Assembly (NCBI RefSeq): GCF_000233455.1
Contig: NZ_JH376427.1
Span: 128,035-192,034, forward strand
Direction of reading: 5' to 3'
DNA length: 64,000 nucleotides
Source: [Clostridium] citroniae WAL-17108
GTDB lineage: Bacteria; Bacillota; Clostridia; Lachnospirales; Lachnospiraceae
Shown: positions 3,969-52,618 of the stretch, in pieces
How positions within the stretch are numbered: position 1 is the first letter of the stretch
Layout: each line of letters starts with the position of its first letter
The notes under the pieces: generated by a model
Seen by the model: only the letters and a program-made list of their open reading frames with translations
What the model was told of the DNA's origin: nothing
The model's database searches: none
Translations under genes and position numbers: made by a program

Positions 3969-3994
3969 GGAAACATACACTTTTGAACATAAAA

Positions 3995-4023
3995 GTGTAC
4001 TCTCGGAGACTCCGAGGGTACAC
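3995..4023. repeat. Dispersed palindrome, family A copy 1
   Basis: Fourteen-base arms GTGTACTCTCGGAG and CTCCGAGGGTACAC flank one central base, with one wobble mismatch. It lies between ribBA and ribH, inside the operon. Related copies occur at 7616-7642, 10330-10343, 27717-27747 and 52529-52586. There is no T run, so it is not a typical terminator. Confidence 0.85.
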
Positions 4024-4046
4024 AAAACCAAAAAGGAGAAATGATC

Positions 4047-5832: not shown

Positions 5833-6215
5833 GTTCTCTCCTCCGTTCAATATAAGATAGGACAAAAAAATGCCCGGACCCATTCCTTCCAGAGTGTATT
5901 TGAACATTCCTTTCCGGCAGACGCGATCCAAAACAGGGGCACGGATGGAGGAAAGGAATGTTCAAACACACGCCAAGACCTAACGGAATGTGTTCAGGCA
6001 CAGAAGCGGGCCATGGACACCATAACCCTGCTTCAGGCCGCCTACCCGGTGGCAGACAGCTGCGTTTTATGAAAGTCTACCACAAATCTGTGATTTTATC
6101 AAGGATTTGTGGTAGACTATATACCATTGATCTACACTACCCCCAGCGGACAAGCGGACACACGCCCCTTGTCCGCTTAAGGGTAAATCTGCGTTTAAGA
6201 AATGAGGAATGGAAC
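5833..6215. other. Intergenic region with three palindromes
   Basis: This 383-bp divergent gap between the MATE and PHP genes holds three separate inverted repeats: perfect 17-bp arms at 5899-5915 and 5950-5966, perfect 15-bp arms at 6074-6088 and 6104-6118, and a family B palindrome at 6139-6184. No gene longer than a shadow frame is supported. Confidence 0.7.
6139..6184. repeat. Dispersed palindrome, family B copy 1
   Basis: ACCCCCAGCGGACAAG pairs with CTTGTCCGCTTAAGGGT around a short CGGACACACGCCC centre. The core resembles CTCAGTGGACAAGGG found at 11407-11458, 52804-52828 and, in part, at 29357-29373. Confidence 0.7.
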
Positions 6216-6938
6216 ATGACACCAATTGAGCTTGACGTCCACACCCACACCATTGCCAGCGGACACGCTTACGCCACCATAACCGAGATGGCATCCGCCG
6301 CCTCCCGGCAAGGACTGAAGCTGTTAGGCATCACTGAGCACACCAAAGGTATTGCCGGATCCTGTAAGGACATCTACTTTCTGAACCTGAAGGTGGTCCC
6401 GCGTCAGATGTTCGGCATCCAGCTGATGCTGGGAGCTGAGATCAATATCATTGATCATAAGGGCACCCTGGATCTGGGGGAGCGCTACATGAAGCACCTG
6501 GACCTGAGGATCGCCGGAATACACAAGATGTGTTATAAACCAGGCTCCCCCAGGGAAAACACAGACGCCATCCTGGGAGCCATCGCCAATCCCTATGTGG
6601 ATATCATCAGCCACCCGGATGACGGAAGCTGTCCCCTGATCTATGAGGAGGTGGTGGCAGCAGCCAAGAGGCATCACACCCTGCTGGAGATCAACAACAA
6701 CTCCCTGCGCACCCCCACCCGCAAACACGCCCGGGAAAATACCCTCGTGATGCTGGACCTGTGCCGCAAGCAGCAGGTTCCTGTCATAGCAAGCAGCGAT
6801 GCCCATTTTACCTCGGACATCGCCAACCTAGATCACGTCCAGCCTCTTTTGGAGGAAGCGGATTTCCCGGAACGCCTGGTGATCAATCACAGCCTGGAGC
6901 AGTTCCGGGAGTTTATTGCCCACAACAGGACTTTATAA
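6216..6938 (+). CDS. PHP-domain phosphatase (YcdX-like)
   Basis: This cytosolic metal-dependent hydrolase belongs to the polymerase-and-histidinol-phosphatase family and resembles E. coli YcdX. Metal ligands appear in the expected order: DVHTHT and H in the first 20 residues, TEHT, GAEIN, SHPDDG and SSDAHF near the C-terminus. At 240 residues it matches the family. I chose ATG 6216 because the family begins at the D-x-H-x-H motif; the ribosome site is weak (GAGGAA). Its end overlaps the convergent RraA-like gene by 6 bases. The substrate is unknown. Confidence 0.88.
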   Translation: MTPIELDVHTHTIASGHAYATITEMASAASRQGLKLLGITEHTKGIAGSCKDIYFLNLKVVPRQMFGIQLMLGAEINIIDHKGTLDLGERYMKHLDLRIAGIHKMCYKPGSPRENTDAILGAIANPYVDIISHPDDGSCPLIYEEVVAAAKRHHTLLEINNNSLRTPTRKHARENTLVMLDLCRKQQVPVIASSDAHFTSDIANLDHVQPLLEEADFPERLVINHSLEQFREFIAHNRTL

Positions 6939-37832: not shown

Positions 37833-38597
37833 TCATTCTATCCGCTTTGCATCCGCCTCTATTGCCAGCCGTTCCTCATTTTTCCCGGCCACACAGGTCA
37901 CCAGTGTGACCCCGGCATCTCGGTCCGCTTTGCCACTTTCGTCTGCTTTGCCACTTTCACCTGTTTCCTCCTCTTTATCCCGCATGTTGGAAAAAAAGTC
38001 GGTCTGCGCAGGGATCCTGCGGCGGTCCGTAATATGGCACAGGAAATTATCCCCCTCTGCCGTGTACAGGTAAAAGGAGGCGTGTTCCCTATAATATTCA
38101 TTATCCCAGTAACGCTTCAGGGAACCGAACATGGAACCGTTTTTCATGTTATGTCCATAGAGGACCGTGTTCCCGCCCTCTGAGGGCAGACTGCTTCTGT
38201 AATCCATGAAAATGCATCCGGCCCCGTTATATGCACCGGAAAATGTCCTGGTCAGGTAATAGGAATTGTCCTCACCCCGGGTCACAGGATAGCTTACCGG
38301 CGTCCCGGGAATGTGGATCCATGCAATGATATGGGGATTCAGCTTTTTAAGGGCCTCAAAATCAACGGCCAGCATGGGCTCCTGCTCCCCGGCGGGCAGG
38401 CTGCCCGGAGACTGGGGAGCAGGTTCCTGTCCGGAAGCCTTGGCTGTATACTGCCGAAGCTCCCCGTACTCCTTTTCCCCTTTCCTGTATTCATACAGGG
38501 AACGGCACAGCAGTCCCGCGGACACCAGAAAGATTGCCAGGACTGAAAGGATGGACAATGTCAGGACGGTACGCCTGATCCCCTGCTTTTTGACCAT
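37833..38597 (-). CDS. Class B-like sortase
   Basis: This membrane transpeptidase joins surface proteins to the wall or to each other. An N-terminal membrane anchor (residues about 8-32) precedes the catalytic barrel. Catalytic residues are H149 (LYGHNMKNGSMFG), C235 (TLVTC) and R243 (EERLAI). The AWIHIPGTPVSYPV region is typical of class B. Before the Cys there is a charged insertion with a short tandem repeat (ESGKAD twice). Its start overlaps the stop of the LPKTG protein (TGATG), so the two are coupled. The 254-residue form is chosen on this basis. Confidence 0.92.
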   Translation of the reverse strand: MVKKQGIRRTVLTLSILSVLAIFLVSAGLLCRSLYEYRKGEKEYGELRQYTAKASGQEPAPQSPGSLPAGEQEPMLAVDFEALKKLNPHIIAWIHIPGTPVSYPVTRGEDNSYYLTRTFSGAYNGAGCIFMDYRSSLPSEGGNTVLYGHNMKNGSMFGSLKRYWDNEYYREHASFYLYTAEGDNFLCHITDRRRIPAQTDFFSNMRDKEEETGESGKADESGKADRDAGVTLVTCVAGKNEERLAIEADAKRIE

Positions 38598-40231
38598 CAC
38601 ACCTGATCCTCTTTCCTGCGAGTCCTGAACCACAGAACCCCCAGGGCTGACAGCAGAAGGAAACTGACCGCGGTCATGGCTCCCAGCATAAGCAGCGGGG
38701 TGGTGTCCCCTGTTTTTGGAAGTGCTGCCAACGGGATCTCAGGATCAGGGATCATGACAGCCTGGGGAACCTCTGTGTCATCAATGGTGGTTACGCTTCT
38801 TCGGCCTCCGCCGCCTCCGCCGCCACCACCACCTCCTCCGCCATTATCTGAGAATGTCTGGATCATAAATTCCCAGTCGATCTTGGCCAGCTGGTCGGCA
38901 TAGACGCACGCTCCCGTTACCGGGTCACAGGTAATGGATGGATCCAGCTGCAGCTCCACCTGGATTTCCTCGGATGTACCACTTTTCAGATAACACAGGG
39001 GGATCAGTTCCTGGAGATTCTCACCTTCCCCGTATCTGGCGCCGGTCACCTTTCCTTCATAGAGGACACTGCCCTGGAATATGACTTTCATGGTGATCTT
39101 TTCCAGGAGCTCGTCTTTTATCTGCTCCTGCTCTCTTGGATCGATCCGCATATAGACTCTGGCAGTCTGGTTGGATGTGGTATTCTCCACCTTCAGGCGG
39201 TCTTTGTAAATACCTCCCGGAACCATGTCCGTAAAACTCATAAACCAGTTCCCTTCCTCCTCCCCGGTCCCTGAGCGGTAAGGTACATACTCAAGCCTCT
39301 GGCTTCCCCGGTTGTAGACCAGGGTCAGCTTCTTTTCCAGGCCTGAGGCGTCATAGACGCCGGGATCCGCCACCTGATCGGCCAGGTAGCGGATCACTTC
39401 CTGGTTAAACCCGCCGGTGAACGTATGCTCCACCGCCGCCTTGGTGGCCTGCACCGTGGTGGCCTTTATATCCATGGTATATCTGCTGCTGTCATACCCG
39501 TATTTGGCATTGGTGCGGGTCACGGTAATCTGCTTGTAACCATCCTCTGTCTTCTCATAATAGGTGTCTTTTCCCGTTATGGTGTTCTCCAGAAGGGGGT
39601 TCATGGTCACGCTTTCCAAAAACACCGGCGAGTCTTCCCCCGGCTGTATCACCCCTATGTAATACAATATATAATTTCCTGTCTCAGACGGCTCCTCATC
39701 CACCAGGAGCCACTTTCCCCTGGCATCCTCCACCTTGTCTGCATAGGGCAAATTCAGGCGTATGCCGGCATCCTGAGCCATTCCGGACCGGAGCACCATA
39801 ACGGCTTCTTTATTAAATGCAGGAATTGCCGCATACTGGCGCTCTCCCTGGTCTGTTACAAAGTCAGGGGGCAGCGCTTCCCCCTCAAGGGGAGGGACCG
39901 CTGTCTCATTGCCATTCTGATCCAGGACGTAAACATTTTCCCGCCTGATCCAGCTCTGGTGGATCTCCACCCTGGCAATGGCGGGCACACCGCTCTCCAG
40001 GCTGCCGTCCTCTGCTTTCAGGTTGTTGGATACCCATACCTGCTTTTGTGTGGTTATACCTGGCTGCCAGTCATCCGGCTGGCGGAAATGCTCCTCAAGG
40101 CTGGTTTTGTACCTGGGAACCCTGTATTCATTGCCGGTCCGTATTACCTGGGACCACGCCGCCCAGGTAGTTCCCACCGATGCAGCCGCCAGAACTGCCA
40201 GGCCCAATAACATGATCTTGCCTTTTTTCAT
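38597..40231 (-). CDS. LPKTG wall-anchored TasA/BsaA-like protein
   Basis: It is probably the anchor of a surface fibre. The N-terminus (MLLGLAVLAAASVGTTWAAWSQ) is a SipW-type signal peptide followed by the same TG-x-Y-x3-Y-T-x-L-E-E pattern as the neighbouring secreted proteins. After about 470 residues of strand-rich sequence comes a run of 13 glycines, then a sorting signal near residue 505: LPKTGDTTP, a hydrophobic segment and the tail RTRRKEDQV. It is coupled to the sortase gene, the likely enzyme for its anchoring. It has 544 residues. Function is inferred from layout. Confidence 0.85.
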   Translation of the reverse strand: MKKGKIMLLGLAVLAAASVGTTWAAWSQVIRTGNEYRVPRYKTSLEEHFRQPDDWQPGITTQKQVWVSNNLKAEDGSLESGVPAIARVEIHQSWIRRENVYVLDQNGNETAVPPLEGEALPPDFVTDQGERQYAAIPAFNKEAVMVLRSGMAQDAGIRLNLPYADKVEDARGKWLLVDEEPSETGNYILYYIGVIQPGEDSPVFLESVTMNPLLENTITGKDTYYEKTEDGYKQITVTRTNAKYGYDSSRYTMDIKATTVQATKAAVEHTFTGGFNQEVIRYLADQVADPGVYDASGLEKKLTLVYNRGSQRLEYVPYRSGTGEEEGNWFMSFTDMVPGGIYKDRLKVENTTSNQTARVYMRIDPREQEQIKDELLEKITMKVIFQGSVLYEGKVTGARYGEGENLQELIPLCYLKSGTSEEIQVELQLDPSITCDPVTGACVYADQLAKIDWEFMIQTFSDNGGGGGGGGGGGGGRRSVTTIDDTEVPQAVMIPDPEIPLAALPKTGDTTPLLMLGAMTAVSFLLLSALGVLWFRTRRKEDQV

Positions 40232-40281: not shown

Positions 40282-40779
40282 TTATGCCTTTTCCTCCCGC
40301 TTCTTTCCCGGGCAGATAAAATCAAGTAATATCCCAATCACCAGGATCCCTCCCATGACCCCAATTGCCTGGGGTGTCCTGCCGCAGGTGACAAAGTATC
40401 CGGCATAGGGGATCTTCACATCAGCCGCCCTGCCTGCCACTCGGTCATATGAAACCGGGTTGGGGTCCGCAGTCTCATTGGCATCTCCCTTAGTGATAAA
40501 ATCACGGCTCAGCTCCTGTTTTTCCACCACCCTGTGGGTGACCAGCGAGCCATCCTCACCTGCATGGAAGGTGATGGGGTCTCCCTCCTGAATCTGCTCA
40601 AAGGCGGCCCCTTTATAGTAGATCACACTCCCAACAGGAAAGGCGGGCTCCATACTTCCGCTGAGCACCACCACCGGCCGGTAACCGGCCAGCATGGGCG
40701 CTGCGATCAGAAGGTACCCCACAATGCACAGATACACGGGCCATGAAAGGATATTAAACAATTGTTTCAGAACGTTCAT
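40282..40779 (-). CDS. sipW: Signal peptidase I of the SipW (Ser-His) type
   Basis: This membrane protease removes signal peptides from a special set of secreted proteins. The nucleophile is S42 in VLSGSMEPAF, and the general base is a His (H82, LVTHRVV) in place of the Lys of ordinary bacterial type I enzymes, the hallmark of SipW and ER-type peptidases. Hydrophobic segments lie at residues about 8-30 and 138-158. It has 165 residues. It sits between the LPKTG protein and four SipW-type substrates, its expected clients. Confidence 0.94.
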   Translation of the reverse strand: MNVLKQLFNILSWPVYLCIVGYLLIAAPMLAGYRPVVVLSGSMEPAFPVGSVIYYKGAAFEQIQEGDPITFHAGEDGSLVTHRVVEKQELSRDFITKGDANETADPNPVSYDRVAGRAADVKIPYAGYFVTCGRTPQAIGVMGGILVIGILLDFICPGKKREEKA

Positions 40780-40794
40780 TCATCAGCCTCTGTA

Positions 40795-41730
40795 TTATGG
40801 TGTAACGGTTTTATTCTCAAGATTCACGCCGTCCTCTGCATTAACCTGTACATTGGTCAATGCAGTGATATCGAAATCTTTCCAGGAATCGTTTACTGCA
40901 TCAGCGGTGGCCTGGACAAACTCAGAGGTAACGGTCAGTGTGTAGTTGGAATCCCCGTAGCCCTTCTTATTGCTGTCCAAATTGGATTCGGATTTGCGGA
41001 ACAGGCTCTCTCCCTCAGGAATAGACGTGACAGCTGCCAGGTCGCGTATATCTTTAAGGCCGTCATTATTCTCATCACTAACCTGGGTCCAGTCGATCAA
41101 TGTCCAGGCACTGGTATTATCCAGATCCGGCTGTGTTGCCGCAACGGCATAGTACTCTTTTGTCTCATAGTGGCCAAGGTCGATATCCGTGGCCATGGTC
41201 AGCCCTTCCAACAGGTGGGTGGTGCTGGACTTATCTGATCCCTTTTTCTCCAGAACGCCGTTCCAGTACCAGTATCCGTCCCCTCCATCGATCCAGCCGT
41301 CATTGGTCAGGATGTTCTTATGTACCACGGTGCCGTCTTCTGCGGGTGCCAGGCCATCGGTGTCATTAACCTGGTCTGCGTCAAAGATTCCGCCGGCATA
41401 GGTCCCGTTGTCAAACAATTCCGATTCGCTCAATATGGTTTTGTAGGGATCCGTTTCTCCCTTGTAGGACCAGTTTTCTTTCATGCTTACCCTGACAAGG
41501 ACGGGATAATCTCCGGTATTCTCCGCCCCTACATTCTTATCCCACTTAGCGCCCGGCTTTAAATCTTCCGTTGGCGGCGTGTAATCCTCCACCAGCTGGG
41601 TGGTATATTTGCCCGTGCTCAACGGGTTATCCAGGGACGCCGTCTGTGAATAGTACGCAAATGTTCCTCCCACCAGGGCTAATGCTCCAAGCCCGATTCC
41701 TGCTGCTGCTTTCTTATTTAACTTCTTCAT
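40795..41730 (-). CDS. BsaA/TasA-like SipW-dependent secreted protein 1
   Basis: A SipW-type signal peptide (KAAAGIGLGALALVGGTFAYYSQTASL) is followed by the shared N-terminal block NPLSTGKYTTQLVEDYTPP and a strand-rich domain with NTGDYPVLVRVSMKENW. The length is 311 residues. This family includes camelysin/CalY and TasA, which form amyloid-like matrix fibres in Bacillus. It is the gene nearest to sipW and is the best candidate for the major subunit, though that rank is only inference. No LPxTG signal is present. Confidence 0.88.
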   Translation of the reverse strand: MKKLNKKAAAGIGLGALALVGGTFAYYSQTASLDNPLSTGKYTTQLVEDYTPPTEDLKPGAKWDKNVGAENTGDYPVLVRVSMKENWSYKGETDPYKTILSESELFDNGTYAGGIFDADQVNDTDGLAPAEDGTVVHKNILTNDGWIDGGDGYWYWNGVLEKKGSDKSSTTHLLEGLTMATDIDLGHYETKEYYAVAATQPDLDNTSAWTLIDWTQVSDENNDGLKDIRDLAAVTSIPEGESLFRKSESNLDSNKKGYGDSNYTLTVTSEFVQATADAVNDSWKDFDITALTNVQVNAEDGVNLENKTVTP

Positions 41731-41846
41731 GTCTTTTCCTCCTGCTTTTTCATATTATTATGCTTTCATTTTGTTATATTGGTCCGTCCATCAAAAAACA
41801 TAGGCGGCAATAACCTGTTTGATCATTCTTTTATGGACAGCTGAAC

Positions 41847-42812
41847 TTACTTCTGGACCTCTGATTCGCTGATCAGCTTCCACTCACATCCAAGCTGCTT
41901 AAAATCAAAGACACCGCCTCCTCCAAAAACCGTGTTGACGGCCTGGTCCGTTGCCTGTACGGTCTGGGCTGCCACCACCAGGGTATAATCAGCGTCACTG
42001 TACCCGGCCAGCCTGGCATCTGTGAGATCAGTAACTGATTTCATAAAGGTTATCTGGCTTCCATCCGCTTTCAGGCGCTCATTCATTTCCCTGGTGGAAA
42101 TGTAATCATATCCAAGAGGGCTGGACGCATTGCTGGCCGTGGCGAATTCCACCCAGTCGTTGCTTCCATTTTCAGGTCTTTGACCCGTGGTGGCATAATA
42201 CCGGATCTCCTTGTAGGAACCCATATCCACATTTTCCGCCAGGGTCACTCCGTCAAGGAGCTTGGTTGTCTCCGCAATTTCATGGCTGCCATCCTCTTTC
42301 TCTACTGCGCCGGGAAGGACATACATATAGTAATAATATCCATCCGCCGGATTATAAACCCAGCCGCCGTCCGGCATCATGCTTTTAAATACCACTGAGT
42401 CATCCGCGTCAGGATCGGCAATTCCGTCTTCCGGGTCACCCTGGTAAACATTCTCAAATGCATTGTTGGCATTGGATGGGCTTCCAATGGCGACCGGCCG
42501 CTCCTTTTCCTGGGAGGTGTCTGTAAAATAAAATTCCTCTTGTCCTCTGACCCACTTTTCCTGGAATTTCACCCGCACTACCACGGGTAGGGTACCTGTG
42601 TTACGGATTGTCACATCTTTATTCACACTGGTTCCAGGCCCCCAGTTCTCACCCTCCGAAGGCTTAAACTCTTCAACCAGTTCCGTATCATATTTCCCTG
42701 TATCAAATATGTTGGCGGCTGTCAAAGTCTGGTTAAAGTAAGCAAATGTCCCGCCGATCCCGGCCACTGCCAGCATTGCGGCCACTGCTATCACTTTTCC
42801 ATTTATTCTCAT
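41847..42812 (-). CDS. BsaA/TasA-like SipW-dependent secreted protein 2
   Basis: It is a paralogue of the previous protein: signal peptide VIAVAAMLAVAGIGGTFAYFNQTLTAAN, then FDTGKYDTELVEEFKPSEG and RNTGTLPVVVRVKFQEKW. It has 321 residues from MRINGKV, where ACAGGAGA lies upstream. It is acidic in the middle (DGIADPDADD). The C-terminal QTVQATDQAVNTVFGG resembles the matching part of protein 1 (FVQATADAVNDSW), so the whole fold is shared. Probably a fibre subunit or cap. Confidence 0.87.
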   Translation of the reverse strand: MRINGKVIAVAAMLAVAGIGGTFAYFNQTLTAANIFDTGKYDTELVEEFKPSEGENWGPGTSVNKDVTIRNTGTLPVVVRVKFQEKWVRGQEEFYFTDTSQEKERPVAIGSPSNANNAFENVYQGDPEDGIADPDADDSVVFKSMMPDGGWVYNPADGYYYYMYVLPGAVEKEDGSHEIAETTKLLDGVTLAENVDMGSYKEIRYYATTGQRPENGSNDWVEFATASNASSPLGYDYISTREMNERLKADGSQITFMKSVTDLTDARLAGYSDADYTLVVAAQTVQATDQAVNTVFGGGGVFDFKQLGCEWKLISESEVQK

Positions 42813-42829
42813 TCTCCTGTCCTCCTGTA

Positions 42830-43573
42830 TCATTCACCGGCCCGGCTGCCCTGACTCCATGTCAGTACGCCGCTGCTGTCTTCCTGAACCACCATATTCC
42901 ACTGTGACTGTACCCCCAGTGCCGAATCATGTTCCTCAACAGGAACCGCCTCTGCATGGAAGGTCAGTTTATAAATCTTATCACTGTAATCCACGTCATG
43001 CCGGTCATTTGACACTTCATCGCTTAAACTGATGCTCTCAAGGATACAGTCCGTGGTTTTCCCTGCCGGGAGGACCTGTTTATAATACCGGTAGCTCTTT
43101 CCGTTCTCATCCGTATATGACTTTGACCAGAACTCAGTCTCCATGTTCATATAATCTACATTTCCCTCTGCTTGGCCGGAATCGGTCCAGACTCCCGGAT
43201 TCCAATGTTTGATCACATGATCCGTGTCGTAGCCAGCCTCCTTTTCAAGGATAACAGGCGGGCTGCTCCCCTGTCCCTTTTGGCACCAGCTCTCCTGTGG
43301 CGGTACTTCAACACGCAGGAACAGGTCCATTTCACCTGTGTTTTGGAACGAAACTTTTTTAATCACTGTCTCTCCGGGCAGGAACGAGCTCTCCGGGTCG
43401 AAAATTTCCACCATGGCCGCCCCGCTGTGGGAAGTTCCCAGGGGATTGGCCAGGGTCATCACATCACTGTAATATGCCAATGTGACTGCAAATGACAGGA
43501 GCAATATAACCAGTATCAGGAGACCGGCTGTCTTTTTGTTTTTCAGCCGTGTATGGATCTCTAATCGTTTCAA
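42830..43573 (-). CDS. BsaA/TasA-like SipW-dependent secreted protein 3
   Basis: It is a shorter paralogue (247 residues) with signal peptide TAGLLILVILLLSFAVTLAYYSD, the block ANPLGTSHSGAAMVEIFDPESS and FQNTGEMDLFLRVEVPP. I choose the TTG start at 43573, giving MKRLEIHTRLK, because AGGAGG is eight bases upstream; a GTG at 43582 is too close. The gene is tightly packed after protein 4. The more divergent sequence suggests a minor or assembly subunit. Confidence 0.82.
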   Translation of the reverse strand: MKRLEIHTRLKNKKTAGLLILVILLLSFAVTLAYYSDVMTLANPLGTSHSGAAMVEIFDPESSFLPGETVIKKVSFQNTGEMDLFLRVEVPPQESWCQKGQGSSPPVILEKEAGYDTDHVIKHWNPGVWTDSGQAEGNVDYMNMETEFWSKSYTDENGKSYRYYKQVLPAGKTTDCILESISLSDEVSNDRHDVDYSDKIYKLTFHAEAVPVEEHDSALGVQSQWNMVVQEDSSGVLTWSQGSRAGE

Positions 43574-43585
43574 AACAACCACCTC

Positions 43586-44245
43586 CTAATTTTTTCCGGA
43601 ATCAACATTCCAGTTAATACTGCATCCATATTTATTGTTGTCCCAGTTATCCGGCGTCACTGAAATGTCCCTGTCAAAAAGCCGCTGCACTGCCTTCAAG
43701 CTGACATTCCAGTCATCGCTGGACTGCACGATCTCCATTGTGAAATGGAATTTATACTCCGCATTTTGATACCTCTGGTCCTCTATCCCTGACAAATCTA
43801 TAAAATCCACGCCCCGGACCAGCTTTTCCGTACTGCGGTCCTGGATGCCTGATACGGAACCGGGAAGCACCTTTTTGTAGTAATACCATCCATCCTCCCC
43901 GCTTTCCCAATTGCCGTCCAATGAAAGGCTGGGGACAGCCAAAGGCAGAGACTGGCCGGATGCATCCACTATATGATTAGGGAGAACCGTGCCATCCTGT
44001 GCAATCCATGACTGCGCAAATGCAACTCTTAAAAACACATCTGCCTCCCCATTATTTGTAAAAGAAACCTCCTTTGCCCCCTGGTCCAGGTTTTCTGTTA
44101 TACCCCCTTCTACAACAGGCGTCTTTATGGGATTTTCCAGTTGCATGGAGTGGATGACCGCGGCGCCTGTTACTCCGGCTGCAATGGATAGGGATACCAG
44201 CACGATCATTGGCAGCAGCTTGGATAAGACCTTTCTTTTATCCAT
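43586..44245 (-). CDS. BsaA/TasA-like SipW-dependent secreted protein 4 (divergent)
   Basis: This is the most divergent paralogue: 219 residues, signal-like N-terminus (LLPMIVLVSLSIAAGVTGAAVIHSM) followed by QLENPIKTPVVEGGI, and FTNNGEADVFLRVAFAQSW, which matches the N-x-G-x-x-x-x-x-LRV block of the others. Its start overlaps the end of the giant adhesin gene by 8 bases, so the two should be translated together. ATG 44245 is preferred over 44254 because the ribosome site is too close to the latter. Confidence 0.8.
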   Translation of the reverse strand: MDKRKVLSKLLPMIVLVSLSIAAGVTGAAVIHSMQLENPIKTPVVEGGITENLDQGAKEVSFTNNGEADVFLRVAFAQSWIAQDGTVLPNHIVDASGQSLPLAVPSLSLDGNWESGEDGWYYYKKVLPGSVSGIQDRSTEKLVRGVDFIDLSGIEDQRYQNAEYKFHFTMEIVQSSDDWNVSLKAVQRLFDRDISVTPDNWDNNKYGCSINWNVDSGKN

Positions 44246-47200
44246 AAAGATCATCTCCTTTCTCCAGTTTTCTCTGGCCGCGCGCTACACCTCTGTCTTC
44301 AACAAACACCATGATGCAGTCCGAGGTAAAGGCCGATGCCATATACTGAGGATTGTCACTTCCATGATATTCTGTAAACGGGTTCTCCGGCCTGAAATCC
44401 GTTCCCTCCCCATTTGTAAATCCCTTTACATTGGTGACTGATGCGGTGTGATGGAAATAGCTCTCATGGTCAGGGGTGTTTGTAAGAATCACCAGGATAT
44501 CGTCACCTGGTTTCACTGTAACTTTGTCCCCGTTCTCAGCTCCTGAGAGCGCGTCTGCCGGTTCGCTTTCCATACGTGACATGGTGTATTCCATTGGTAC
44601 GATCTCCGCAATGGAAAAGATCTGCCCTTCCTTGGGAGGAATCACAAGGATTGCCCCGCTTTCCTCTCCATTTCCAAGAGCAGTCTGTGTATAGACAGCT
44701 CCCTTACTGTCCATGACCTGTATCACAAACTTGTAGGAAGAATCAATGGGTTCATTTTCAAGGCCGTTCTGTTCCACTGTCTTTTTGATCCTCAGTTTTG
44801 CCGCCAAAAGGGTATTGGTTATTTGAAACGGATTGGCGGATGTCCCCGTACCGCTGGAATCGTAGGATGCTGAATAAGAGTATCCGGAGGATAATACCGC
44901 CGTACTGCCATCCTCTATGGGCTGGCCAGCCTGGTCCAGTTCTCTCACCGTGTAAACATACGGCGGGGAGCTTCCATCGGCTTTTACAGGCAGGTCTTTC
45001 CAACCTGCTGTCCATTTGTTGGCATCGCTGAGTTTTACAGGTTCGCCAAAGGCCGCCCCATTCTGATACAGCTGGACCTCCAATATCTCAGGCCGCGTAT
45101 GGTAGGCATTTTCATAATCCACCCATACTTTTTTCACTGCCAGGTCTTTCTGATTATAAGTATTGGTTATCACAGAGTGATCACTGCTGTAAGTGACAAT
45201 ATATTGTCCCTCACCAATCTGTACCGTGCTTCCGGCTTCCACCTTATTACCGGAAGAGTCAACCTCATAGGGAACATAGTTGATCTTTGTCCCTCCAGAA
45301 TCATACCCCGGCAGATTCTGCCATGTGCCGTACCAGTTATTAGAGCTGTCCAGTGTGATAATGTCACCCGTCCTTGTACTTCCATCCTTAAACAATCCCA
45401 CCTGAACAGAACCCTCTCCGGCACCACCGACCCACTGTTTCCTCACATTGATATCCGTGAGCCGGGTATTAGTGATGGTCATCCCATTGATGCTTGATGT
45501 ATAACCAACAATTGTTCCTATTTCCTCTACGGTATAAACATGCTCCTCATTTGAATTTACTTCCTTATATTTGGGCAGGTTATCCCACGTATACTCCCAG
45601 CCATTGGAGGCCTCCAGCCTGACCGCACTACCGTAGGAAGCGCCATCTTGTTTCAGCTGGACATAGATATATTCAGGCCGTTTCTTATCCTCATTATTTC
45701 CATCCAGCCACAGCTTCCGGACCGTGCGGGAAACCGTCTCGGATTCCGGGGTTGGGATTGATGTGACGCTTGGGAGTGTGAATTTCATGTAACAGCAGGA
45801 ACCGGTTCCTCCTCTCTCTATAAAGAAGACCGACATGGTATGTTTCTGGTTCTTATCGCTTAGAAGGCCCTTGTTCTGCATCCATGACTTCAGGTCCACA
45901 TAAGCGCCTTCCGCGGAATGGATTCCTCCCAGATCAACGTCACTTACCAAATTGCCGTCCACATACAGCCAGAAATCATCATCTCCCCTGAAGTAATAGT
46001 CCATGGGCCCGGTGTAATCTCCCAGGACAAACTCAAAGTCATAGCGCATTCCAAAAAACCAGTTGTGGGTGATCCCCTTTTTGTTCACGTCCTCATCATT
46101 TTGAGGGAATCCGTAATGGTTATAGCCAAACAGAGGATCCCTGTTTTTTCCGTTAACCGCGTTGTTGTAACTGACACTGTCCATAGGCCAGAACAGGTTG
46201 GAATAAAGTTTTTTGGATCCGTTCCAGCTGTCACATGTATAGACGATCTGATCCAGGTTTTTCAAAAGTGTTTTTCCCGAACTGTCATATACGGATTCCA
46301 GTGTATAGGTGTCCCCCTGGCGTTCAAAACCCAGCTGATAGTTCGGCAGGTATTTCTTGGCATAATAGGTCACCTTTTTACCGTCCTTATATGTTTCACT
46401 GGTGGTGATATCCTGGGTTGCAAAAAGGCCCGGATCCTGATAATTAAACTTAATCGTATTGTCTGCGGCCAGGGTTTCTTTGGGAATCCCCGTCACCACG
46501 GAACCTGCATTGTTTGGCACCCCTGTATAACCATGGCGTATCTGTGCCTGGCCGTTTCCTCCGATCCCAACGCCGATGCGGGTGGAGCTGTTTCCCAGGG
46601 AGGTATTGTTCATTCCCACCTTGCTGGTGTTAAGGGTTCCATGGTTCCCATCCGTGGTCTTTCCTTCCACCGTAACATTATAATCGTGGAATCCCGTATA
46701 TCCCTTAATGGTGCCCGAGGTAGGCACATAGTTGATTTTTATCTTATTGTTGGCCGCAGTGAGATAGATCTTCTGGTCTGTGGCATTTTCCGTAAAGGTC
46801 TGTCCATTGGGGTAATTCGCATTGGTTATGGTCACGCTTTTTACCGTATAATTACCGCCCAGGGCAACCTTACTCCAGTTGGAGACTGCAATAGAGTAAT
46901 CCACCCCTGTGCCTGATCCATTGGGCAGGGTCAGGTTATCATCGCTGTATATTTTTACCTCCTGCTTTGCATACGTGCTTCCGCTTTGGGCTCCCGGATA
47001 CAGTCTGTTCCCGGAGACAGATTCCTTTATTTTACCGCTATTGTCAAATGTCATCTTATCCAGCTGTGCCCAGTGTTCCACTGTCACAGGCACTTCTTTT
47101 GCCTCCGGCACGTTGACCACAATGTATATGGAAAAATGATCTGTTTCCATCACTACAGTTCCGTCAGATGCCACCGTGCTGTTCATCTCATTTGCTACAA

Positions 47201-49352
47201 CCTGCGTTTCATCCAGATGGTAGACTTTGATCTCATCTCCTCCGGATTGGATCCGTTCACTGGGGTCTGCCGGTTCCTCCTGCCGGGACAACACCTGGAT
47301 TGCACCCGGTACATCCGCCAGCGTGTTGGATGCAGCCGCAGGATCACGCTTTTCCAGCTCCAGATTTTTAAAGGCTACATTGATAGGGCCTACCGGTTCA
47401 ACCTCAACCCCGTCCGCGTAGAGCTTTATATCCAGGGCTTTGTAGGATTGAATAGAGATCCCCTCCTCCTGAGACTTTTTCTCCAACGCCTCGTCCACCT
47501 GGGCCATATGCTCCTGCCCTACTTCGGAGACTCTCACAGCCATCTGGTCCGCCTCAGGAAAGGAATCCACTGGTCCGCTTACCGTAACGGCAGCATTCCC
47601 AATCCGGCCTTCCAGGGAGATCTCCCCGTCACCTGTTACAATCAGTGAGAATCCCTGGGTGGATTTGCAGGTTTTTCCTTTTATCTTGCTCTCCTGGGTA
47701 ATCTTTCCAAAATAGATCCCGGGGCTCACATTCCCGGACACGCGGTACGAACAGATCAGCATATTCTCCCTTACATCATCCACCATTGCCTTTCTCACCT
47801 TAAAGCCGTTTAACTTGGCGTTGTACATTTCAATCCTGTAATTTACTTTCCCAAGGTCTACCGTATAATCTTCGCTTTCCTCCTCATCTGCATTTTTCCG
47901 GGTTTCCCCGGCATCTTTTGCAGCGGTATCTTTATGTTCATTTGAAGGATCTTCCGATTTTGATTCAATTACAACCACGGATTCAGACCCCATTTTTTCA
48001 CTTTGGTCCTGCTCTGTCACCCCTGTCTCTGTCAAATCCCCTTGAGCGTGTTCTGATGACATGGTTGGTGCTGCTTCTGTGTCTGCCGCTTCTGTGTCTG
48101 CTGCTTCTGTTAGTCCTGACTCGTCTGACGCCTGGGCTGTGGTTTCCTCTGGATCTGTTGATCCTGCCTCCATGGATGCCTGTGTCTGGTTTTCCCCTGA
48201 ATCAGTGGGTGAAGATTCTGTGGATTCCTGTGTCTCGGTTCCCCCTTGCTCGGCGGCCGCTTCCCCAGCGGAGGGCAGAGGAGTGGTTCCCTCAGTCTCC
48301 GTGGGTGCCTGTGTCTCGTTTTCCCCTGACACTGTCGGCAATGCCTCTGTGGTTTCCTCTGTCTGGTTTTCTCCCGAATCAGAGGGTGCCTGGGCCTCAG
48401 TTTCCCGGGGTATGCCCGGGCCTTCTTCCGTCATCTCTTGTACCGGCTTTGTGGGTATATCCGGCCGGGCCTGTGACGGCGTGGCAGGAAGTGCTTCTGA
48501 TGGCGTAGCCGGTGGAACGACCGGAACAGCCTCTGACGGTGTAGCAGGAGCAATATCTGCCTCATCCTTAAAGGAATCTTCCAGGATTGCGTCAAAATCA
48601 AACATGGATGCACGGATTCCCATAGTGACCATCTCACCTGTTCCTATTCGGTTTCCATCTTGGAACTCAACGGAATCCATATTCAGATAATTGACCGTAT
48701 ATAAAAAATTCTCACGGACGCGTATTCTCTTTTCTTCACCTTTTCCATTAAACTGGAATTTTACCTGCTGGTTCCGTACCCCCTCGATATCTTCATCAAT
48801 GGAAAATGTAAAACGTACTGAATAAATCTGCCCGGGAACCAGTTCGATCCCATCGATCCGCTCCAGCCCTTTTGTGCCATCCTCATTTTCCGGAATACCT
48901 GTTTCCAGTGTGCCATCATCCGCTATACTATCATCCGGTATGCCGGTATCAAATGCATCTTCTTCTGACTCCTCCAAAAGAAAAAACTCCGCCGAGTCCG
49001 CCTGAATCCCCTTTGCGCTATATGTCAGTGTGCCATCTGTGACCACAGTTCCCGTCTCATTCTTAAGATGAACATCCAAGCTGACCAGCCCCCCTGGGCG
49101 GAAGTCCCCCTCCTCCGAAAAAATGCTGATTACCACATCATCCTTTTTTGAATTTTTGAAACTGGCATTGCTGACCATGGCCTTGGAAAATTCGCCAAGC
49201 TCCGACAGATCCGTCTCCTCCCGGTAGAACCTGTCGCCATATTCTTCGGCAAATGCAATCCCGGAATTGCCCAGTATCAGTATGCTTACAATGGTAAACG
49301 CCAAAAAACCAGACGTTATCCTCTTCCAGCCCGCTTCCAATCTCCGATTCAT
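44238..49352 (-). CDS. Giant secreted adhesin with PA14/fibro-slime and Cna-B-like domains
   Basis: The protein has 1704 residues. An ordinary signal peptide ends near residue 36 (GIAFAEE). A strand-rich part (about 40-260) is followed by a Thr/Ser/Glu/Pro-rich linker with imperfect SGENxTxAxxE repeats (about 270-490), then more strand-rich sequence. A PA14/fibro-slime domain follows (about 1050-1200, core RGDDDFWLYVDG near 1121), then at least three Cna-B-like repeats (VRKLWLDG near 1211, VRKQWVGG, VKKVWVDY near 1407) and a SpaA-like end (LRIKKTVEQ near 1521). Such proteins bind glycans or matrix. There is no LPxTG signal or C-terminal membrane helix, which is odd in a sortase locus. Confidence 0.87.
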   Translation of the reverse strand: MNRRLEAGWKRITSGFLAFTIVSILILGNSGIAFAEEYGDRFYREETDLSELGEFSKAMVSNASFKNSKKDDVVISIFSEEGDFRPGGLVSLDVHLKNETGTVVTDGTLTYSAKGIQADSAEFFLLEESEEDAFDTGIPDDSIADDGTLETGIPENEDGTKGLERIDGIELVPGQIYSVRFTFSIDEDIEGVRNQQVKFQFNGKGEEKRIRVRENFLYTVNYLNMDSVEFQDGNRIGTGEMVTMGIRASMFDFDAILEDSFKDEADIAPATPSEAVPVVPPATPSEALPATPSQARPDIPTKPVQEMTEEGPGIPRETEAQAPSDSGENQTEETTEALPTVSGENETQAPTETEGTTPLPSAGEAAAEQGGTETQESTESSPTDSGENQTQASMEAGSTDPEETTAQASDESGLTEAADTEAADTEAAPTMSSEHAQGDLTETGVTEQDQSEKMGSESVVVIESKSEDPSNEHKDTAAKDAGETRKNADEEESEDYTVDLGKVNYRIEMYNAKLNGFKVRKAMVDDVRENMLICSYRVSGNVSPGIYFGKITQESKIKGKTCKSTQGFSLIVTGDGEISLEGRIGNAAVTVSGPVDSFPEADQMAVRVSEVGQEHMAQVDEALEKKSQEEGISIQSYKALDIKLYADGVEVEPVGPINVAFKNLELEKRDPAAASNTLADVPGAIQVLSRQEEPADPSERIQSGGDEIKVYHLDETQVVANEMNSTVASDGTVVMETDHFSIYIVVNVPEAKEVPVTVEHWAQLDKMTFDNSGKIKESVSGNRLYPGAQSGSTYAKQEVKIYSDDNLTLPNGSGTGVDYSIAVSNWSKVALGGNYTVKSVTITNANYPNGQTFTENATDQKIYLTAANNKIKINYVPTSGTIKGYTGFHDYNVTVEGKTTDGNHGTLNTSKVGMNNTSLGNSSTRIGVGIGGNGQAQIRHGYTGVPNNAGSVVTGIPKETLAADNTIKFNYQDPGLFATQDITTSETYKDGKKVTYYAKKYLPNYQLGFERQGDTYTLESVYDSSGKTLLKNLDQIVYTCDSWNGSKKLYSNLFWPMDSVSYNNAVNGKNRDPLFGYNHYGFPQNDEDVNKKGITHNWFFGMRYDFEFVLGDYTGPMDYYFRGDDDFWLYVDGNLVSDVDLGGIHSAEGAYVDLKSWMQNKGLLSDKNQKHTMSVFFIERGGTGSCCYMKFTLPSVTSIPTPESETVSRTVRKLWLDGNNEDKKRPEYIYVQLKQDGASYGSAVRLEASNGWEYTWDNLPKYKEVNSNEEHVYTVEEIGTIVGYTSSINGMTITNTRLTDINVRKQWVGGAGEGSVQVGLFKDGSTRTGDIITLDSSNNWYGTWQNLPGYDSGGTKINYVPYEVDSSGNKVEAGSTVQIGEGQYIVTYSSDHSVITNTYNQKDLAVKKVWVDYENAYHTRPEILEVQLYQNGAAFGEPVKLSDANKWTAGWKDLPVKADGSSPPYVYTVRELDQAGQPIEDGSTAVLSSGYSYSASYDSSGTGTSANPFQITNTLLAAKLRIKKTVEQNGLENEPIDSSYKFVIQVMDSKGAVYTQTALGNGEESGAILVIPPKEGQIFSIAEIVPMEYTMSRMESEPADALSGAENGDKVTVKPGDDILVILTNTPDHESYFHHTASVTNVKGFTNGEGTDFRPENPFTEYHGSDNPQYMASAFTSDCIMVFVEDRGVARGQRKLEKGDDLYG

Positions 49353-49492
49353 CATTTACCTCCTGTATGTTCTGCAAACTCTTATATTTTTCTTAATCTA
49401 GGGCACTGTTCCTTAATGCTAATTTTATCAAAGGGGGGTATCCTGCATCCTGCCACATCCAATGCATTTTCCCAATTTTCTATGTGCGGCGC

Positions 49493-49526
49493 AAAAATAT
49501 CGCCATCCCGCATTGCAATGGCGATA
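49493..49526 (-). terminator. Terminator after the SARP regulator gene
   Basis: TATCGCCAT (49498-49506) and ATGGCGATA (49518-49526) pair, and on the minus strand they are followed by ATTTTT. It separates the regulator transcript from the adhesin gene, implying the surface genes have their own promoter or depend on readthrough. No clear promoter was found by eye in 49356-49490. Confidence 0.7.
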
Positions 49527-49532
49527 AAAGTT

Positions 49533-50780
49533 TTATTCCAGCATGGACTTTTCCAGTTCCTGGGTCATGGTCACATGGTACCACAATTCTCCCCGGCTGC
49601 CCGGCATCTTATTGTAGGCGGATTCGATCCGCTGAAATATGATACTGCAGGATTCCTTGTTGATCCTTGTGAGAAGGAGGATATAGTGGCGGTTTCCGTA
49701 CCGTGTATACGCATCCCCTTTTCTCAGGGAACTGCCGATCACGTCCTTCAGCAGCTCCATCTGGTATATGCGGTTGTCCTGCCCTCTTCTTTTTTCCTGC
49801 TGCCCCAGGGTGAGGAACATCAGCACCGGGTTCAGGTCATGGCGCTCCCTGGCCCGAAGCAGCAGGCGGCAGTAGTCAATAAAGCTTGGATATGTACAGT
49901 AATACGCTCCCGTGATAACGCCTTCCTCAAATATGGCCCTGGTGATATCTCCTTCCCTGCCCATAAAATACCGGTCCGTTATGTGCCATGCCTGAATGCT
50001 CCGTTTATGTTTCCGTTCAAACAGTTCCAGGTCTTCAAAACACTTCTGCATCTCCTCCGCCGGCGGACTCCCCATCTCCCTTGCGTAGAGTTCCATGGTT
50101 CTGTTATAAATATCAATGGCCTCCTCATACCGGTACATTTCCAGGCAGCACCGTATCTGCTCTGTCTGCCAATTCTCAAAGGGATAGACGGCAGATGCCC
50201 TGGTGTAAAGCTTCAGCAGGTTCTGGTAGTCATTATTGGATTTAAACGCCTGCTCCAACTCCCGGATCGTCTGCACATATAGGCGTTTAAAAGATTCACT
50301 CTTCTCATAGAACCACATGTCGGACTGGTTCATGGGCAGCAGCTCTCCGTAATAGTTTTGATTGGCCTGAAGGAACAGCGCGGTCCGTTCACCTCCCCGG
50401 CTCCCCTCTGCCTTATGTACCAGTGTTTCAAAATAGGCCGCATCTAATTCAACCTTAAAGCTGCTCTTCCACCTGCATATCCCATCCTGTATAACTACAT
50501 ATTCCTCCTCCGGAAGGCCGGAGGCCGCCAGCTGTCCCTTGAGCCGGTAGCACAGATTGTTCAGGTTTTTATTGCGGTTGCCCGCGTCAGTCCCCTCGCT
50601 CCACCCATAGAGGAAATCCATGATCTCACTTTTTGCAATCCCCTGCTCTCCTGATAGCAGCAGCATCTGGAAAAGACGCACGGATTTAGCGTTGCCTGTT
50701 TTATGGAACAGTATGTGGTCCTCCCCATAACGCATTGTAAATTTACCCAGCATCTGTACACGCAGAATCTTACCGCCCAT
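49533..50780 (-). CDS. SARP/BTAD transcriptional regulator with degenerate GGDEF domain
   Basis: This 415-residue cytosolic regulator has an OmpR-like DNA-binding domain (residues about 5-105; VQMLGKFTMRYGEDHI), a bacterial transcriptional activator domain of TPR-like helices (about 110-250), and a C-terminal domain (about 275-415) that resembles GGDEF but has GNRHY at 362-366 in place of GGDEF. It should not make cyclic di-GMP; it might bind a nucleotide. AAAGGAGG upstream of ATG 50780 fixes the start. It lies between the invertible switch and the adhesin gene and is the likely activator of the surface locus. Confidence 0.82.
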   Translation of the reverse strand: MGGKILRVQMLGKFTMRYGEDHILFHKTGNAKSVRLFQMLLLSGEQGIAKSEIMDFLYGWSEGTDAGNRNKNLNNLCYRLKGQLAASGLPEEEYVVIQDGICRWKSSFKVELDAAYFETLVHKAEGSRGGERTALFLQANQNYYGELLPMNQSDMWFYEKSESFKRLYVQTIRELEQAFKSNNDYQNLLKLYTRASAVYPFENWQTEQIRCCLEMYRYEEAIDIYNRTMELYAREMGSPPAEEMQKCFEDLELFERKHKRSIQAWHITDRYFMGREGDITRAIFEEGVITGAYYCTYPSFIDYCRLLLRARERHDLNPVLMFLTLGQQEKRRGQDNRIYQMELLKDVIGSSLRKGDAYTRYGNRHYILLLTRINKESCSIIFQRIESAYNKMPGSRGELWYHVTMTQELEKSMLE

Positions 50781-50844
50781 ACGGTCCGCCTCCTTTATCA
50801 TCATGTGCCGGAGCCATTGCCCTGAAAAGCTCCCTGCTCCTGGT

Positions 50845-51351
50845 TTACAGCTGTATCATGCTGATCATGCGCATCAGTTCCAGGGCGCTTCTGAAATTTA
50901 CCACCTTGCCCTTGGTGATCTTTCCTCTGATGCTTCCCTGCAAACTGGAGAACTGTCTGTATTTCACATAGACGATCAGCACTTCCCTGGCCTTTAACGC
51001 CTGCTTAAAGGGAATCTGGTCCATGGTGTACGTCAGGTTGCTCCTGTCCGCCTGTGGATGATGGGAACCGGCTTCCCTGTAACGCCTTTCCGTCTCCATA
51101 TTCAGGAAGCGCGGATCCGTTGTTGCATGAGGCATACCAACCCAGTTGCACATCTCATCCAGCTTCAGCACCATGTCTCCCACTCCGCTGAACCATATGG
51201 GTTCCTTAAGGTAGCAGCTGTAAATTTCCCCGCACACTTCCCCCTCCTCAGTTCCCTGAATACAGACCAGCATGGTGCTGGACCGGTCCGATACCACCAG
51301 CTCCTCAATGCGTTTCATGGCTTCTTCGTCCTGTATGATCTCACTGCCCAT
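50845..51351 (-). CDS. Uncharacterised protein, first gene after the invertible segment
   Basis: I do not recognise this 168-residue soluble protein. It is alpha/beta in look, with ELVVSDRSSTMLVCIQG, a central EPIWFSGVGDMVLKLDEMCNW and a C-terminal basic stretch. I use ATG 51351 (MGSEIIQDEE). The frame continues upstream through the left 29-bp repeat to 51489, so inversion would change any longer N-terminus. It lies 64 bases before the SARP regulator on the same strand and may be its partner. Confidence 0.65.
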   Translation of the reverse strand: MGSEIIQDEEAMKRIEELVVSDRSSTMLVCIQGTEEGEVCGEIYSCYLKEPIWFSGVGDMVLKLDEMCNWVGMPHATTDPRFLNMETERRYREAGSHHPQADRSNLTYTMDQIPFKQALKAREVLIVYVKYRQFSSLQGSIRGKITKGKVVNFRSALELMRMISMIQL

Positions 51352-51389: not shown

Positions 51390-51418
51390 TTACAACAGAA
51401 TTCCTCTTTTGTTGTAAA
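51390..51418. repeat. Left 29-bp inverted repeat of the invertible segment
   Basis: Reading TTACAACA, a 12-base centre, TGTTGTAA and a final A, this is the exact reverse complement of 51629-51657. The 8-base arms around an asymmetric centre look like the two half-sites of a tyrosine recombinase core site. It lies 38 bases before the start of the 50845-51351 gene. Confidence 0.95.
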
Positions 51419-51485
51419 TTTCTCCTTTGTAACTGTCTCCTCATCCATTCAATCCCCCGGATCATCTGAGGGAACAATAAAATAA

Positions 51486-51538
51486 GCACAATAAACAGGC
51501 TGGAAAAAATTTGATTTAGACCAGCTTATTTATTGTGC
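51486..51538 (-). terminator. Hairpin inside the invertible segment
   Basis: Arms 51486-51503 and 51521-51538 (GCACAATAAA...CTGG with CCAG...TTTATTGTGC) match at 16 of 18 positions. On the minus strand the stem is followed by TTATTTTATTG, as in a terminator for leftward transcription. In the present orientation it would block readthrough from the recombinase into the regulator genes. Confidence 0.6.
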
Positions 51539-51577
51539 CGATAATTCAAAAAAATGTATGAGGCAATCACATTTCTA

Positions 51578-51606
51578 TGGCAAACATAAAAAATATGTAG
51601 TATAAT
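51578..51606 (+). promoter_or_regulatory. Promoter inside the invertible segment (now facing right)
   Basis: A perfect -10 TATAAT (51601-51606) has TGGCAA at the -35 distance (51578-51583, 17-base spacer), in an AT-rich run. It is the best promoter I see in the segment on either strand. In the present orientation it reads towards the end of the recombinase gene, antisense to it. Confidence 0.65.
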
Positions 51607-51628
51607 AACTCCAAACGATATCCTTTTG

Positions 51629-51657
51629 TTTACAACAAAAGAGGAATTCTGTTGTAA
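51629..51657. repeat. Right 29-bp inverted repeat of the invertible segment
   Basis: It is the exact reverse complement of 51390-51418. It encodes the last eight residues (YNRIPLLL) and the stop of the recombinase, so inversion at this site leaves that protein unchanged. Confidence 0.95.
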
Positions 51658-52502
51658 TGTTCTATGAGCAGCCCCATTCGTTCCAACTGTCTGACATGTT
51701 TTTCCCCGCTTTCCATTGTATAGATACGTGTCGTGTTGACACTGCTGTGCCCCAGTATGTCTGACAGCCGCAGCAGATCCTTTTCCTGGCTGTAGTACAC
51801 CCTTGCAAAGAGGTGGCGCAGATTATGGGGAAATATCTTTTTCGGATCGATCCCTGCCTTTATTCCGATTTTTTTCATCTCACGCCATATATTGCTGCGG
51901 TCCATGGGCTTTCCGCTTCGTGTCACAAAAATGGCGCCGGACTGTATCTTCCTTTTCCCCGCATACTCCTTAAGAAGCCTGCACAGCTGCTGTGTGAGAA
52001 AGATGGTCCTGACCTTTCCTTTGCAGTCCACCTGTGCAATCTGATTTTCCACCGCATCCACCGTAATATAGGAAAGTTCCGATATTCGTATGCCTGTGGA
52101 GCACAGGGTCTGAAGCAAAAGGCATAGCCGCTCATTTCCATTTACACGCGCAGCCTCCACCAGCCGCAGGTATTCCTCACGTTTCAGTTCCTTTTGTCCG
52201 GAACAGAAGACCTGCTGCTTCACTTTTATAAACTTAACCAGACAGTCATTCCATTCCAAGTACCGGAAAAATCCATTGACAGCAGCCAGGGCGCCGTTAA
52301 CGGTCACCGGCGACAGATTTCCCCTAAGTGTTTCCTTCCAGGCCATAACCCTTTCTTTGGTAACTGCTGACCCATCCATAAACTGTTCAAACTGGTTCAG
52401 ATAATATCTGTATTTATAAATGGTTCCCTGGCTCATCTCATTATGCTGCAGCCAGAGACAGTATTCTTCGATCGTTCCGCCTGCAATTGTTCGTTTCAAC
52501 AT
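51630..52502 (-). CDS. Tyrosine site-specific recombinase (probable invertase)
   Basis: This 290-residue XerC/FimB-like recombinase has an N-terminal SAM-like core-binding domain (residues about 8-95) and a catalytic domain with R139 (TGIRISEL), H226 and R229 (FPHNLRHLFA), H252 (GHSSVNTT) and the nucleophile Y261 (TRIYTMES). All key residues are present. The start at MLKRTIAGG has AGGAGG upstream. Its 3' end lies inside the right inverted repeat, which strongly suggests it inverts the adjacent 51390-51657 segment. No phage or transposon genes accompany it. Confidence 0.92.
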   Translation of the reverse strand: MLKRTIAGGTIEEYCLWLQHNEMSQGTIYKYRYYLNQFEQFMDGSAVTKERVMAWKETLRGNLSPVTVNGALAAVNGFFRYLEWNDCLVKFIKVKQQVFCSGQKELKREEYLRLVEAARVNGNERLCLLLQTLCSTGIRISELSYITVDAVENQIAQVDCKGKVRTIFLTQQLCRLLKEYAGKRKIQSGAIFVTRSGKPMDRSNIWREMKKIGIKAGIDPKKIFPHNLRHLFARVYYSQEKDLLRLSDILGHSSVNTTRIYTMESGEKHVRQLERMGLLIEHYNRIPLLL

Positions 52503-52528
52503 GTCCGTTCCTCCTACTAGATTGTTTA

Positions 52529-52586
52529 GTGTACTCTCGGAGTCTCCCCGGCACCCATCTTTGCGGCTGAGATTCCGAGAGTACAC
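52529..52586. repeat. Dispersed palindrome, family A copy 5 (split)
   Basis: The arms GTGTACTCTCGGAG (52529-52542) and TCCGAGAGTACAC (52574-52586) are kept, but about 31 bases with a partial inner stem separate them. It lies 27 bases before the recombinase start. Confidence 0.85.
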
Positions 52587-52618
52587 TTTATGTTTCTTAT
52601 TTTGCCGGGTAAATATAG

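Follow-up and report, generated by a model that had tools for sequence, protein, structure and literature searches.

The 29-bp inverted repeats found in the window, the whole stretch of 64,000 nucleotides of [Clostridium] citroniae WAL-17108 DNA analyzed here, very probably belong to a promoter-inversion (phase-variation) switch acting on a gene that we call P3 and on a SARP-like regulator gene, and the gene layout makes it fairly likely that this regulator in a further step controls a fibre operon. In the mechanism that we propose, the recombinase would bind two dyad-symmetric repeats, one of which holds its own last codons, and would invert the 210 bp between them. In the OFF orientation the promoter would read antisense into the recombinase gene and the operon would be silent, with a central terminator blocking read-through from the recombinase side. 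In the ON orientation the flipped promoter, now at a distance of 21 bp from the left repeat, would read through this repeat into P3 and the SARP-like regulator gene, and the start codon of P3 would lie about 80 nt behind the predicted start of the transcript. The SARP-like regulator would then activate the separate Cna_B/BsaA/SipW/sortase operon, and a clonal population would divide into fibre-making and fibre-free cells. Our statements on inversion in this strain, on transcription and termination, on the action of the regulator and on an antisense effect on the recombinase are readings of the DNA sequence.

The original prediction held that perfect 29-bp inverted repeats lie 210 bp apart and that a tyrosine recombinase gene ends inside one of them, and both claims were borne out. 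The left arm (51390-51418) and the right arm (51629-51657) are 100% complementary at a spacing of 210 nt, and their length exceeds that expected by chance, as the longest perfect arm in 100 Markov-1 resampled windows (pairs 60-500 bp apart) was 16 nt and the second-longest in the real window 13 nt. Extended by one base on each side, each repeat forms an imperfect dyad with 13-nt halves and 6 nt between them; a dyad with a short spacer is expected for the core site of a tyrosine recombinase. No further copy of the repeat was present in the 6.65-Mb genome at up to three mismatches, a limit at which more diverged sites would escape, and this uniqueness points to a dedicated local enzyme. The Rfam search around the switch returned a single match, with 26.9 bits against a gathering score of 100.

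The recombinase gene (51630-52502, minus strand) encodes 290 amino acids, counted from an ATG at 52502 behind GGAGG that is probably the start and that replaced the 318-aa reading frame called mechanically. Its stop codon (51630-51632) lies inside the right repeat, which codes for the C-terminus YNRIPLLL and the stop; since the perfect repeat extends into the stop codon, this C-terminus would be unchanged in both orientations. The protein matched the Pfam Phage_integrase domain with 103.8 bits (cut-off 27.1), and an N-terminal SAM-like domain was also above its cut-off. The catalytic motif of tyrosine recombinases consists of R, H-x-x-R, H and Y, and all of these residues are in place (R139, H226-x-x-R229, H252 and Y261). 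The best-matching solved chains were of the Xer type. The protein fell below the cut-off of all 11 NCBIfam models that it matched, including XerC (117.1 vs 335.15 bits) and XerD (124.1 vs 329.6 bits), which carry equivalog cut-offs, XerA, and the two tyrosine-type DNA invertase models PRK09870 and PRK09871 (27.9 and 37.4 bits vs 221 and 222), which we take to represent short invertases of the FimB/FimE type. Among the named loci found, its closest relative was that of [Clostridium] clostridioforme AGR2157 (88% identical). The recombinase leader contains a 60-bp palindrome (52528-52587; -35.8 kcal/mol, z -7.9) that is absent in AGR2157 and in the related genome G003. The end sequence of this palindrome has 42 forward and 31 reverse copies in the genome at up to two mismatches, compared to no control matches, and the copies include two pairs 41 bp apart and three pairs 146 bp apart. 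The palindrome is probably a small repeated element that is mobile, and it may affect the expression of the recombinase.

The TATAAT promoter that had been predicted inside the segment is present and lies in a conserved block, although its score alone does not rise above the background of the scan. It comprises ATGGCA (51577-51582) and TATAAT (51601-51606) on the plus strand, separated by 18 bp, and agrees with the consensus at 10 of 12 positions, with a weak -35 element. Because the scan found a total close to chance (21 promoter-like sites vs 16.8 expected), this promoter stands out by conservation and not by score: a 14-base block, TATGTAGTATAATA, was found without a mismatch in six loci and argues for an outward-facing promoter in the segment. 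The motif was taken from the same six loci, so that the match itself is no test and only its direction is informative. The block faces the recombinase in the window and in the loci L062 (G003), L065 (AGR2157), L069 (G011) and L073 (G012), and it faces the operon, i.e. the ON direction, in L066, which is the second of two copies in G004. Between the end of the -10 block and the repeat there are 21 bp. As assembled, the promoter faces the recombinase and thus away from P3 (50845-51351), and the invertible segment (51419-51628) is accordingly read as OFF. Orientation calls from the promoter motif were dropped for distant members of the family, where the scores were within chance, and ON/OFF calls are therefore limited to the six loci that match the block at all 14 positions.

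Between the promoter and the left repeat lies a central hairpin (51486-51538), which is a probable two-way terminator. T-rich stretches follow its G-C part on both strands, and for this reason we read it as a terminator that probably insulates both sides of the segment. In the window the hairpin is far more stable than in shuffled sequences, with z scores of -5.9 for one strand and -6.1 for the other. The hairpin is kept in six loci (with L066 taken reversed), which are few and related; compensatory changes occur in 5 of the 21 predicted pairs, some pairs are broken, and the covariation term of the alignment was slightly unfavourable (+0.45 kcal/mol). A terminator scan restricted to loops of 3-8 nt did not list this hairpin and found no excess of sites in the window (14 vs 15.5 in shuffles).

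The first gene behind the flipped promoter would be P3 (50845-51351, minus strand, 168 aa), which belongs to a family without a Pfam model that often adjoins SARP-like genes in Lachnospiraceae (38 distinct members aligned) and that, read by eye, has the motif YRQNxTWQG...FRSALELLKLID. It is followed by the SARP-like regulator gene (49533-50804, minus strand, 423 aa), whose product contains a BTAD domain (33.2 bits, cut-off 22.1), has an N-terminus without a Pfam model match and gave no NCBIfam match. Farther along the minus strand the fibre operon encodes a large Cna_B-domain protein (44238-49355, 1705 aa), four BsaA/TasA-like proteins (40795-44254), a SipW-type signal peptidase (40282-40779; above the cut-off of TIGR02228 and below that of the SipW model NF046067), a BsaA-like protein with an LPXTG-type anchor (38597-40231, 544 aa) and a class B-type sortase (37833-38633; above the Pfam Sortase cut-off and below that of TIGR03064). 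Four of the five BsaA-like proteins reached 82.5, 179.2, 151.2 and 147.7 bits with TIGR04090 (cut-off 60 bits) and the fifth 30.2 bits; within the group of four, the genes at 42830-43582, 41847-42833 and 40795-41730 are above this cut-off and that at 43586-44254 is below it.

In a variant of the same switch, a single transcript would run through P3, the regulator gene and the whole 13.5-kb fibre locus, and the regulator would be dispensable. This variant, which is included in the high likelihood given to the switch as a whole, appears unlikely. All genes lie on one strand and, of the nine junctions between P3 and the sortase gene, seven are overlaps or gaps of at most 50 bp, as such read-through would have it, but a conserved terminator-like hairpin with a T-run (49493-49526, minus strand, 10 pairs and five T) directly follows the SARP-like gene, and behind it comes the remainder of a 177-bp gap before the Cna_B gene. 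Much of this remainder is also conserved in G003 and AGR2157, and it includes a leader of the fibre operon (49356-49480, minus strand), conserved in three genomes, which is a candidate for a regulator-dependent promoter. The hairpin has a z score of -2.65, with 5 of 200 shuffles folding as well; it is kept in G003 and AGR2157, and the terminator scan with its loops of 3-8 nt did not list it. Given this hairpin and the separate leader in front of the fibre operon, the regulator route fits better than read-through, and the original proposal that a flip turns on the gene at 50845-51351, the SARP regulator and, through it, the SipW/TasA/sortase locus is strengthened to that extent. SARP regulators bind repeats of a known kind; upstream of the fibre operon the sole candidate was a 7-mer present as one tandem pair, which was not used.

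A second argument against read-through comes from SARP-like loci elsewhere in the family. In a sample of 299 genomes of the family, 55 had a SARP-like match at E <=1e-20. Of the 76 matches listed, with that of the window itself set aside, our survey covered 39 (two of them from this genome or genus) together with one P3 locus. In two of these loci, L162 and L174, SARP-like and P3 genes occur with Cna_B, BsaA and SipW genes, the SARP-like genes standing before the fibre genes, and no recombinase relative was found in the stretches examined; upstream DNA amounted to only 0.4-3.8 kb in some loci, including L162, and unrelated invertases would escape such a search. This layout suggests a lasting link between regulator and fibre genes, and the switch thus seems to have been added to an older regulator-fibre locus. 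Of the 39 loci, 19 have a relative of P3 (E <=1e-4) in the neighbourhood of the SARP-like gene. Recombinase relatives lie upstream of it in two loci, L158 and L186, both from genome G296, where two of them stand in tandem just ahead of SARP-like genes; near these twin recombinases no clear inverted repeat was found, only 11-bp pairs. In another locus, L157 (G127:C12:22000-41500), 17-bp inverted repeats 109 bp apart span the region from 234 to 91 bp upstream of the SARP-like reading frame. The stretch examined there contained no relative of the recombinase, and a switch served from elsewhere is possible. Longer repeats were seen 2.6-8 kb upstream in L162, L177, L183 and L192.

The placement of repeats at the 3' end of the recombinase gene is widely shared. 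Relatives of the recombinase were found at E <=0.001 in all 17 genomes of the genus, a threshold that includes distant tyrosine recombinases; the genus contributed 40 stretches among the matches listed, mainly the closest, and a search of the genome collection contributed 23 recombinase loci from 60 candidate stretches. The resulting census comprised 61 distinct loci, which are related and not independent, 57 of them with enough DNA, after the removal of L033, L034 and L035 as duplicates of L065, L069 and L073 and of L036, L042, L054 and L055 with too little 3' DNA. Perfect repeat pairs with arms of 13 bp or longer occurred at the recombinase 3' end in 48 of the 57 relatives and were missing in nine. 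In these 48 loci the start of the first arm falls anywhere from 81 bp ahead of the recombinase stop to 149 bp past it and the arms are 118-341 bp apart, within the 110 bp before to 160 bp after the stop and the spacing of 90-450 bp that the repeat finder allowed. Such repeats were found in none of 55 control regions 1 kb downstream, and mononucleotide shuffles gave an expectation of 0.1 loci. A rough sorting by pattern placed 19, 14 and 11 of the 48 repeats in three types and left four unsorted. Outside the census, L010 and L027 have repeats, and L017, L018 and L019 (28-29% identical) do not. Among seven of the 24 recombinase matches in the genome of this strain, repeats accompany the window's own, L056, L058 and L059 and are missing from L057, L060 and L061.

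The 48 segments were also compared with each other in both orientations. In 37 pairs the scores of the two orientations differed by at least 55, compared to a largest difference of 34 among 300 shuffled pairs, and of these clear pairs 25 had the same and 12 the opposite orientation, with L066 taking part in four, L085 in six and other loci in two weaker pairs. The segment of L066 is 71% identical to that of L069 (G011) when reversed and 45% as it stands; likewise, that of L085, the second reversed case, is 72% identical to L072 when reversed and 49% as it stands. Segments lying in opposite directions in relatives indicate that inversion has happened in the recombinase family. The claim of an invertible promoter is thus supported by the layout in the census and by the two directions in which one promoter block is found among relatives, which suggest such a promoter in the window as well. 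The comparison of orientation in related genomes, put forward with the original prediction, gave a divided answer, as L066 and L085 are reversed, whereas all three orthologous SARP/fibre switches (the window, L062 and L065) have the OFF orientation. In L066, which is ON, the switch lies before P3, but no adhesin or fibre operon follows there.

The common orientation of the three orthologues would also be expected if a former switch had become locked OFF, with repeats and recombinase persisting after inversion had ceased in the lineage. In line with this, L062 has its SARP-like gene broken up between different reading frames and L065 has lost most of P3, so that the regulator or P3 is damaged in two orthologues, and the leader of the recombinase in this strain carries the repeated palindrome that the other two genomes lack. 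On the other hand, the recombinase is intact with the catalytic residues that were looked for, and in nine loci inspected the arms are identical within each locus yet different between loci, as expected under continued exchange, a point of limited weight because the repeat finder picks perfect arms. We consider a locked switch quite unlikely. Most improbable is a reading of the repeats as a palindromic terminator or as the attachment site of a mobile element without any inversion system, for which one could point to the dyad in each repeat and to tyrosine recombinases often being part of mobile elements, but which is at odds with the segments reversed between relatives, the lack of an element gene between the repeats and the layout kept before differing operons in the 48 loci.

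The proposed promoter-inversion switch shares features with several known systems. In the fim system of E. coli an invertible promoter between short inverted repeats adjoins a tyrosine recombinase gene and has fibre genes as its target. The switch proposed here resembles fim in its invertible promoter, neighbouring tyrosine recombinase and fibre target; unlike fim, its recombinase has a SAM-like N-terminal domain and reaches just 28-37 bits against the invertase-model cut-offs of 221-222, it has longer repeats, which share sequence with the recombinase gene, and its first target is a regulator. In Clostridia, the tyrosine recombinase RecV of C. difficile switches cwpV and flg and acts at several distant sites (PMC5903667), and our case is likewise that of a surface-structure phase switch operated by a tyrosine recombinase. 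In contrast to the sites of RecV, the repeat described here occurs at two arms only (up to three mismatches), which is not the multi-site pattern of a master invertase. With regard to gene content, there is a likeness to sipW-bsaA of C. perfringens, which is expressed in a bimodal ON/OFF manner in a clonal population, the bimodality needing a two-component system and PilA2 (PMC7395162); BsaA fibres, SipW and a nearby sortase gene are common to both. That text does not mention inversion, a recombinase or phase variation, and unlike in C. perfringens the heterogeneity would here be written into the DNA.

Among gut bacteria, the study of the hCom2 community (PMC11892184) describes inverton group 139 with invertase group 35, in which 33 invertons, 32 of them from the class Clostridia, are linked to one tyrosine recombinase group. 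Its example from Clostridium sp. D5 has 26-bp repeats that are 205 bp apart by coordinates, and the orientation shifted over culture passages. This group is alike in having a tyrosine recombinase beside short invertible segments in Clostridia, and the recombinase family studied here may be the same as group 139/35. The main text of that study contains no mention of SipW, sortase or biofilm matrix, and a passage of PMC10939037 concerns Bacteroidales, with the words clostridium and firmicutes absent. Invertible promoters in gut bacteria, including Clostridia, are of an established kind, and a SipW/BsaA target is without an earlier report in the literature searched, in which most subscription papers were beyond reach; a described inversion switch of a SipW/TasA/BsaA locus was not found there, in line with the original statement that none was known. 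If our reading is true, the production of BsaA/TasA-type fibres in a gut clade would be bet-hedged by DNA inversion acting through a regulator, whereas C. perfringens obtains ON/OFF expression of the same kind of genes via a two-component system. Since the orientation can be read in ordinary sequencing data, the question of which gut cells make fibres would become testable from existing reads, and the layout at the recombinase 3' end would make such switches easy to recognize with nothing more than an assembly at hand.

The other targets of the family, which were mostly named by eye during inspection of reading frames, include giant surface proteins, exopolysaccharide operons and the SipW loci L037 and L058. 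We tentatively propose, with somewhat less than even confidence, that Lachnospiraceae and their kin possess modular one-gene switches in which the recombinase often ends in its own recombination site and which stand in front of many kinds of surface genes (two SipW loci of this strain, giant adhesins, exopolysaccharide operons and a flagellar operon); with the OFF promoter running antisense into the recombinase gene, orientation could feed back on flipping. Inversion in silico altered the C-terminal tail of the recombinase in 15 of the 36 loci in which a repeat starts before the stop, among them L037, L038, L074, L076 and L083, with L084 being uninformative owing to an earlier stop. In the genome of this strain, several distant tyrosine recombinase genes (26-30% identical) are clustered at G000:C11:143527-164502, and L058 (G000:C1:799500-819200) is a second SipW locus behind a related switch, with a recombinase of 42% identity and 21-bp repeats. 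L058 encodes two peptidases of the SipW type as well as a protein of 2332 aa whose match to LRR_5 stays below the cut-off; four other proteins tested there gave no NCBIfam family match, which leaves BsaA-type fibres without support at this locus. In genome G004, L067 (G004:C6:25000-44900, positions 3396-6938) contains a recombinase relative (43% identical) with a pair of 20-bp repeats. Immediately behind these come flgB, a gene that by eye resembles fliF, and fliG, and the locus is possibly a flagellar phase switch.
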